This document shows, piece by piece, positions 4,798-6,402 of a DNA stretch of 59,517 bases. A model generated the notes under the pieces. That model worked only from the letters and a program-made list of their open reading frames with translations, had not been told where the DNA came from and ran no database searches. Each line of letters begins with the position of its first letter. Positions within the stretch are counted from its first letter, which is position 1. The DNA is from Bacteroidaceae bacterium (GTDB lineage: Bacteria; Bacteroidota; Bacteroidia; Bacteroidales; Bacteroidaceae). A program made the position numbers and the translations under genes. Where the stretch lies: assembly GCA_017522915.1 (NCBI GenBank), contig JAFWXX010000017.1:1-59517 (forward strand), read 5' to 3'.

Positions 4798-6402
4798 ATG
4801 GCTGAAACAAAATTCATCTTCGTTACCGGTGGTGTTGCATCATCACTTGGAAAGGGTATCATCTCTGCATCTATCGGCAAGCTCTTGCAGGCGAGAGGAT
4901 ACAAGGTTACAATCCAGAAATTCGACCCGTACATAAATGTTTCTCCGGGTACGCTGAATCCTCAGGAGCACGGCGAATGCTACATAACCATTGACGGCCA
5001 TGAGGCCGACCTTGACCTGGGTCACTATGAACGCTTTACCGATATCAAGACTACACGTTGGAATACCTTTACAACAGGGCGTATCTATAGCGAAGTAATT
5101 GAGAAGGAGCGTCGTGGCGAGTATCTCGGCAAGACAGTGCAGGTAATACCTCATATAACAGACGAAATCAAGCGCAAGATGAAGCGCGGCAGCACAAAGG
5201 AGAAGTTCGACTTTGTGATAACAGAAATCGGCGGTACTGTAGGCGATATCGAAGGTCTGCCTTTCCTTGAGGCAATACGTCAGCTCAAGTGGGAGCTTGG
5301 CCGCCGTGCGGTATGCGTTCACTTGACATACGTTCCCTATCTCTCGGCTGCAGGCGAGCTCAAGACAAAGCCTACCCAGCACTCCGTAAAGCAGCTTCAG
5401 AGCCTGGGAATCCAGCCCGACTGTCTTGTGCTGCGTGCCGAACACAAACTGAGTGCAGGCCTTTGCAAGAAGGTGGCAAGTTTCTGTAATGTGATGCCCG
5501 ATTGCGTAGTTCAGAGCCTTGATGTACCTTCGATATACGAGGTGCCTATCAAGATGCAGGAGCAGGGTCTTGATGCGGCTATTCTGCGTCTTACAGGCGA
5601 AGAGGTGGGCGAAACACCCGAAATGAAGCCATGGCGTTCGTTCGTGGAGCGCAGAAACAACGCGAAGAAGGTTATAAATATCGGTCTTGTAGGAAAATAC
5701 GACCTTCAGGATGCATACAAGAGCATTCATGAGAGCCTTTACCAGTGCGGTACATACAATGACTGCAAGATAAAGCCTCACTTCATAAACAGCGAGAAGA
5801 TAAACGAAGAGAACGTGGCTCAGATGCTGAAGGGCATGGACGGTTATATCATTTGCCCTGGTGTAGGTCCGCGCGGCTTCGAGGGCAAGGTCATTGCAGC
5901 CAGGTATTGCCGTGAGAACAATCTTGTTACTCTCGGTATCGGTTTGGGAATGCAGGTTATGGCTATTGAGGTCGCACGCAACATTATGGGGCTTGCCGAT
6001 GCCAACAGCTATGAGATGAACGACCAGACAAAGCATAATATCGTTGATATAATGGAGGATCTCAAGAGTGTGGGCAATCCTTTCGGTACTATGCGTCGCG
6101 GCGGTTACGATACTGTGATTGCGAAAGGTAGCAAGGCTCATGCTATATATGGTGCAGAGAGAGTTACTGAACGTCATTATCACCGCTATGAACTCAATAT
6201 TGAGTATCGTGACGAGCTTGTGAAAGCCGGCTTGGCTTGCACCGGTATCCATCCCGAAAGCGACCTCGTGGATATTGTGGAGTTTACTGCTTGCGACTGG
6301 TATGTGGGTGTGATATATGAGCCCCAGTACTCAAGTACAGTGCTGCATCCGTCACCTGTAGTAATGGATTTTGTAAAGAATGTAGTGGCCCGTAAGGGAT
6401 AA
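4798..6402 (+). CDS. pyrG: CTP synthase with a degenerate glutaminase domain
   Basis: Makes CTP from UTP and ATP, normally using ammonia released from glutamine. The 534-residue length is normal. The synthetase domain looks functional: [12 protein letters not shown]-loop (11-21), [31 protein letters not shown] and KTKPTQHSV. The C-terminal class I glutaminase domain does not. The nucleophile elbow reads LGIGLGMQ where families have LGICLGMQ, giving Gly at residue 382. The catalytic HPE motif reads EPQ (Glu508, Gln510). The oxyanion loop is PGVGPRG rather than GGFGxRG. All three triad residues are gone while the fold is kept, so the protein is predicted to depend on free ammonia. The altered codons lie in clean frame. 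A perfect 34-bp terminator palindrome follows. Confidence 0.95.

Follow-up and report, generated by a model that had tools for sequence, protein, structure and literature searches.

The pyrG gene described here probably encodes a CTP synthase that has given up glutamine hydrolysis and would run on free ammonia, as part of a switch that extends across its genus. The gene lies in a 59,517-nucleotide stretch of DNA from a Bacteroidaceae bacterium (contig JAFWXX010000017.1), called the window below, and its features are collected in Table 1. The open reading frame has no internal stops, and the 534-residue product matches TIGR00337 ("glutamine hydrolyzing CTP synthase") with 658 bits, the cut-off being 463. 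By sequence family, PF06418 included, and by its synthetase site the protein is a CTP synthase (EC 6.3.4.2); by its triad and GTP motif it falls outside the sequence definition of the glutamine-hydrolysing form, and its PF00117 score is 66 bits versus 125 for an intact second PyrG (the module copy, see below).

Table 1. Features of the pyrG locus in the window (positions are those of the window; GATase, glutamine amidotransferase)
Feature	Position	Strand	Basis
pyrG, glutaminase-erased CTP synthase, 534 aa	4798..6402	+	translation, TIGR00337
Synthetase (amidoligase) domain, PF06418, residues 5-264	4810..5589	+	399 bits
Degenerate class-I GATase domain, PF00117, residues 303-521	5704..6360	+	66 bits
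Lid L11/oxyanion region: Val356 (E. coli Phe353), Pro358 (E. coli Tyr355)	5863..5871	+	
Gly382, position of E. coli nucleophile Cys379	5941-5943	+	alignment
GTP "wing" motif GGTMRLG changed to FGTMRRG (Phe429, Arg434)	6082..6099	+	alignment
Tyr461, position of E. coli Arg468	6178..6180	+	alignment
Glu508-Pro-Gln510, position of E. coli catalytic His515 and Glu517	6319..6327	+	alignment
Terminator-like stem-loop, 17 pairs, 3' of pyrG	6419..6456	+	

The initial annotation had reported the loss of all three glutaminase residues, and the translation of 4798-6402 bears this out: the Cys-His-Glu triad reads Gly382-Glu508-Gln510, in the motifs LGIGLGMQ (5932-5955) and YEPQY (6316-6330). The same Gly/Glu/Gln triad is present in all 23 distinct sequences of this type (the erased PyrGs), whereas Cys/His/Glu is found in the 27 other PyrGs of the same alignment (nine from a sister clade, four module copies and 14 outgroup sequences) and in 22 of 22 PyrGs taken, one per genome, from other families of the order, ten of these also being among the outgroup rows. 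The oxyanion loop, likewise said to be altered, reads PGVGPRG in 23/23 erased PyrGs and PGFG[QSH]RG in the 27 others, and the position of E. coli Tyr355, Pro in the window protein, is Gln in most relatives. Changes fixed in the erased clade include, in E. coli numbering, Phe353Val where the lid meets the oxyanion region; two in the GTP wing motif, Gly436Phe and Leu441Arg; and, in the GTP cleft, Arg468Tyr. Arg468 of the E. coli enzyme is modelled as a GTP contact in PMC9138612, from which the roles of the wing motif and the lid are also taken. The combination linked with GTP activation, GG(T/S)(M/L)RLG together with Arg468 and Arg470, is thus broken in the erased PyrGs at both the wing motif and Arg468. 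Other GTP-site residues are kept (Arg356, Arg440, Arg470 and, in 22/23, Thr438), and the residue aligned to E. coli Glu68 is Glu in 23/23. Gln383 and Glu403, which we take to be glutamine-site residues, are also unaltered in 23/23. In the sister clade, where the triad is intact, Gln383His, Glu403Asp and a hydrophobic residue (Val, Leu or Ile) at Thr438 are fixed in 9/9 sequences (L021-L027, L204, L207); because of these substitutions glutamine use may be impaired there as well, perhaps by another route away from glutamine.

The synthetase half had been described as preserved, and the wider comparison agrees. K18, K40, D72, E140, K187, K223, P54 and H57, which we take as part of the residue list defining the ATP/Mg/UTP site and the tunnel gate, are conserved in 23/23 erased PyrGs, and the ATP/UTP, gate and L4-loop residues examined are those of the intact relatives in all 23, with the exception of the L4-loop Asp107 (Glu in 18, Asp in five). 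Of the positions that do not vary among 19 references, one of them E. coli, 103 of 106 in the synthetase half are unaltered in every erased PyrG, and 13 of 58 in the GAT half are altered in all of them. An erasure selective for the glutamine/GTP site was considered and rejected, the altered GAT positions showing no significant concentration near it (Fisher p = 0.20). The lack of a significant concentration and the retention of Gln383 and Glu403 are among the points that count against the ammonia reading.

The loss is a property of a clade. Our sample comprised 44 genomes of one Bacteroidales genus, 22 of which carry a pyrG of at least 88% identity to that of the window; 72–76% relatives occur in nine others, a 261-residue piece only in G027, and no pyrG in 12. 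The 22 genomes, each a different species, yield 23 distinct sequences at 88–100% identity; one MAG, G067 (contamination 7%), has two different erased genes (G067:C29 and G067:C197), perhaps from strain mixing. The named records at 88–98% identity are MAGs, mostly from the cecum, colon or rectum of sheep, goat, deer, buffalo and yak; the titles of three give no host. In one subgroup (G002, G012, G025, G029 and G065; pheT 82–83% identical) there are no PF06418 matches, although one of the genomes is 98% complete, and pyrG has there either been lost or is systematically absent from the assemblies. By a quick tree method the erased PyrGs form a single clade (SH-aLRT 100) whose neighbour is the triad-intact clade of the same genus (SH-aLRT 99). 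The presence of Gly/Glu/Gln in 23/23 sequences of this divergence, with codons at the three sites that vary synonymously only (six combinations over 45 rows, duplicates included), rules out an assembly error. The three changes occur together across the clade, and the initial description of them as independent losses is not supported.

Among 22 erased sequences, pairwise NG86 estimates of dN/dS were 0.020 (synthetase half) and 0.054 (GAT half), compared with 0.025 and 0.053 among the nine sister sequences; these values are rough, because dS is high (means 1.3–1.4) and near saturation, the pairs with dS < 2 numbering 200 (synthetase) and 149 (GAT) of 231 in the erased set and 15 and 6 of 36 in the sister set. 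Both halves of the erased PyrG are under strong purifying selection, which together with the purely synonymous variation at the erased residues rules out a pseudogene.

The intact synthetase half and gate, combined with the dead triad and the altered GTP cleft, argue that the enzyme should run on ammonia. From these sequences we infer that 4-phospho-UTP would be aminated by free NH3, which probably enters as has been proposed for exogenous ammonia and the E. coli enzyme, and that the erased GAT domain would be retained as a structural part serving the interface, gating and regulation, which could account for its constraint. On balance, and less firmly, we favour a broader view in which most nucleotide synthesis in the genus has been freed from glutamine and would be fed with ammonia: by point erasure in CTP synthase, an internal deletion removing the glutaminase core of GMP synthase (GuaA), loss of the glutaminase gene of carbamoyl phosphate synthase (CarB without CarA) and active-site drift in PurF. 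PurL and, where present, HisH still seem glutamine-dependent. A few members, including the genome of the window (G000), would hold a second, possibly transferable set of glutamine-type enzymes beside a type III glutamine synthetase, and so two isozyme sets per cell, the second plausibly serving at times of low ammonia.

The other amidotransferases of the genus fit this picture to different degrees. A short GuaA is present in full in 26 of the 44 genomes and as fragments in two more, with none in the assembly in 15; a long guaA occurs only as the four module genes. All 23 short copies examined have exactly 435 residues, with an N-terminal part that contains neither the Cys elbow nor HPE, so that the full GATase domain of a glutamine-type GuaA occurs in none of them; the one sequence scanned with TIGR00888 reached 52 bits (cut-off 172). 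A separate GATase subunit of GMP synthase was not found in a PF00117 scan of 10 genus genomes. Copies of the 435-residue GuaA, 86–89% identical, turn up in a few other families of Bacteroidales: G148 (L258:5026-7982) and G131 (L260:768-3637) have one next to a normal guaA, in tandem, G185 (L259:3698-5005) has one as its sole guaA match, and G233 has one at L261; in two further families GuaA is an ATPPase of about 326 residues with no GATase remnant (L262 in G221, L263 in G251).

Native carB was found in 41/44 genomes (37 near full length, four partial), and carA in three, all of them module carriers; a CarA partner for CarB was thus not found outside the module carriers, and where examined the native gene order is purF-carB, versus purF-carA-carB in the module. 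The ammonia levels that the E. coli carbamoyl phosphate synthase requires are called likely physiologically irrelevant in the available text of PMC6245113, and with so high a need CarB alone is not obviously sufficient. Native PurF keeps the Cys in 9/9 copies. One of its motifs reads YNRGQQ, compared with HNRGQ[ED] in four of five comparison sequences and RNRGQD in the fifth, and a Thr conserved in all five is Ala in 8/9 native copies. A wholesale loss of every glutaminase is ruled out by PurL, which keeps Cys and HPE in 10/10 genus genomes scanned, and by HisH, with its motifs kept in the four copies examined; the loss is therefore selective and glutamine use is not abolished. HisH itself was detected by the PF00117 scan in one of five erased genomes and in 5/5 other genomes of the genus; none was found in the erased genomes G000, G004, G005 and G030, which are 91–97% complete. 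Much of the erased clade may lack HisH, with the histidine pathway or its glutaminase gone there. A search for GATase_6 (PF13522) in 10 genus genomes returned PurF only, apart from a weak match in G062, with no match in G002, while three outgroups have further members that by length are probably GlmS or AsnB. Since GlmS- or AsnB-type matches are lacking in these ten genomes, the weak one aside, amino-sugar and asparagine synthesis may be ammonia-run as well. G004 also has an ORF that resembles a glutamine-type NadE (named by eye).

The initial annotation had allowed for either free ammonia or an ammonia donor in trans. In the latter case a glutaminase would dock on the erased GAT domain and deliver ammonia to it, as in a split amidotransferase, and the constraint on this domain and the invariance of Gln383 and Glu403 would suit such an arrangement. 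We nevertheless regard it as unlikely. The PF00117 scan of five erased genomes returned PyrG, the GuaA remnant (3/5), HisH (1/5), module genes (2/5) and a fusion protein of about 600 residues resembling a C26 hydrolase joined to a dipeptidase, and no spare class-I amidotransferase was found beyond HisH and the module genes. Most loci of the 94–98% group have the same upstream neighbours (malic enzyme, nitroreductase, ProC-like, kdsC and maf, named by eye); these are not glutaminases, and they are not shared by the 88% subgroup. Free ammonia is preferred to a dedicated donor because the change in PyrG is one part of a genus-wide loss that includes GuaA, CarA and perhaps PurF. The fusion protein recurs in the genus (L162, L163, L173, L176, L178, L179; named by eye), its class-I-GATase-like N-terminal part having an intact Cys and its C-terminal part resembling a membrane dipeptidase.

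The uncoupling from glutamine is not as clean as first supposed, since a search for another pyrG, the check suggested at the outset, located one in G000 itself: a triad-intact gene, 62% identical to that of the window, at G000:C36:12384-13973. By PF06418 search intact second copies occur in four of the 44 genomes, beside an erased copy in G000 and G004 and beside a sister copy in G013 and G034. The remaining 20 of the 22 erased genomes have none (G067, with its two erased genes, is among them); they are 55–94% complete, and about 17 matches would be expected were the second copy universal, so that most of them must truly be without it. Contamination was rejected as its source, because the pheT on the same contig is the only pheT match in G000 and shares 82–94% identity with the full-length pheT genes of the genus (37/44 genomes have a match); in G004 a single 87-kb contig carries both the module and the native purF-carB.

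In G000 the second pyrG is the last gene of an operon-like run, purF-carA-carB-guaA-pyrG, with dapL, a type III glutamine synthetase gene (PF12437) and dapF divergent from it. The same eight genes, dapF-GSIII-dapL/purF-carA-carB-guaA-pyrG, form the module in G000, G004 and G013, the G004 and G013 genes being 76–90% identical to those of G000; the G034 contig starts within carB. The module adjoins pheT in G000 and is on contig C9 in G004, where pheT is on C7; two module-free genomes have no module genes in the 14 kb around pheT. This variable location relative to pheT and the module-free pheT regions suggest that the module may be mobile. The PyrG tree, built by a quick method, groups the module copies with the native clade and one Prevotella sequence under a single starred node, and the module copies may stem from an old paralogy. 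By analogy, a type III glutamine synthetase together with glutamine-type enzymes would plausibly make up a set for low ammonia. Ammonium is preferred by rumen bacteria; when it is limiting, Prevotella ruminicola raises glnN-2, gltBD, asnB and amtB about 27- to 69-fold and alters the expression of pyrG among other genes (PMC5552732).

The erased PyrG might instead be a regulatory or structural pseudoenzyme, e.g., a filament subunit or a CTP sensor, with CTP coming from salvage or from a second pyrG; intact second copies in G000 and G004 would permit this, and CTP may be salvaged in the niche, given that 12/44 genomes of the genus are without CTP synthase, one of them 98% complete. We consider it improbable to about the same degree as the donor in trans, since the synthetase active-site residues examined are kept in 23/23, constraint on the protein is strongest in the synthetase half and 20/22 erased genomes have no intact second copy. 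Still less credible is a decaying duplicate made redundant by the module copy: the window gene may be dispensable in G000, where an intact pyrG is at hand, but in 22 species the erased gene keeps its full length and is under constraint, and 20 of these have no intact second copy. Class-I amidotransferases act via a Cys thioester, and glutamine hydrolysis by a rewired site using Glu508, Gln510 or another residue is the least probable reading of all, the invariance of the replacement residues and the kept Gln383 and Glu403 being outweighed by an elbow without a nucleophile and by the altered oxyanion/lid and GTP-wing residues.

An ammonia-fed erased PyrG would have precedents in part. It shares length, family, synthetase active site and tunnel gate with the glutamine-hydrolysing enzyme (PyrG, TIGR00337; PF06418 plus PF00117; E. 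coli 1S1M), from which it differs in the missing triad, the altered oxyanion/lid region and GTP wing with Arg468, and the predicted restriction to NH3. According to the available text of PMC9138612, the E. coli enzyme is able to use exogenous NH3, a reaction that GTP inhibits; its G352P variant is almost fully active with NH4Cl and dead with glutamine, R429A loses about 10- to 20-fold of the glutamine-dependent activity, and the NH3-dependent activity of both is near-normal or normal. Those are single changes made by engineering, whereas in the erased PyrG several sites have changed in nature and the changes are fixed. Human CPS1, in which the catalytic Cys is replaced by Ser, takes free ammonia (PMC4655335, available part), and the vertebrate enzyme likewise retains a dead class-I glutaminase domain, as the erased PyrG does under constraint. 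CPS1, however, is a different enzyme from a different kingdom, and the erased PyrG lacks all three triad residues and occurs alongside the losses in GuaA and CarA. External ammonia can also serve the ATPPase subunit of the archaeal two-subunit GMP synthase (PMC10526850); the GATase of that enzyme is a separate subunit, in contrast to the single chain with an N-terminal GATase stub found in the genus. Retention of a dead glutaminase domain is therefore already known from CPS1, and the parallel losses across the genus add interest. Among the best matches in the open-access literature there was no report of a natural glutaminase-null CTP synthase, nor of a bacterial lineage dropping several nucleotide-pathway glutaminases together.

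If the ammonia reading is true, the erased PyrGs are a natural experiment on the remaining roles of a dead GAT domain in gating, GTP control and filaments, and the genus would show that ammonia can sustain the synthesis of CTP, GMP and carbamoyl phosphate in vivo. It would connect enzyme architecture with the hindgut nitrogen economy of ruminants and suggests that this group of uncultured ruminant-gut bacteria builds nucleotides directly from ambient free ammonia. Standard annotation hides the trait, because NCBIfam gives the name "glutamine-hydrolyzing" to the truncated GuaA and the erased PyrG alike.

The promoter ascribed to the gene in the initial annotation found little support: one sigma-70-like match (9/12) lies just 5' of pyrG at 4710-4737, in a region that has 8 such matches versus 4.3 +/- 2.1 in shuffles. 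Beyond pyrG, positions 6412-10827 hold a 1471-residue ORF that seemingly consists of two tandem sensor-kinase-like halves, and a response-regulator-like ORF follows it at 10831-11559 (both named by eye).
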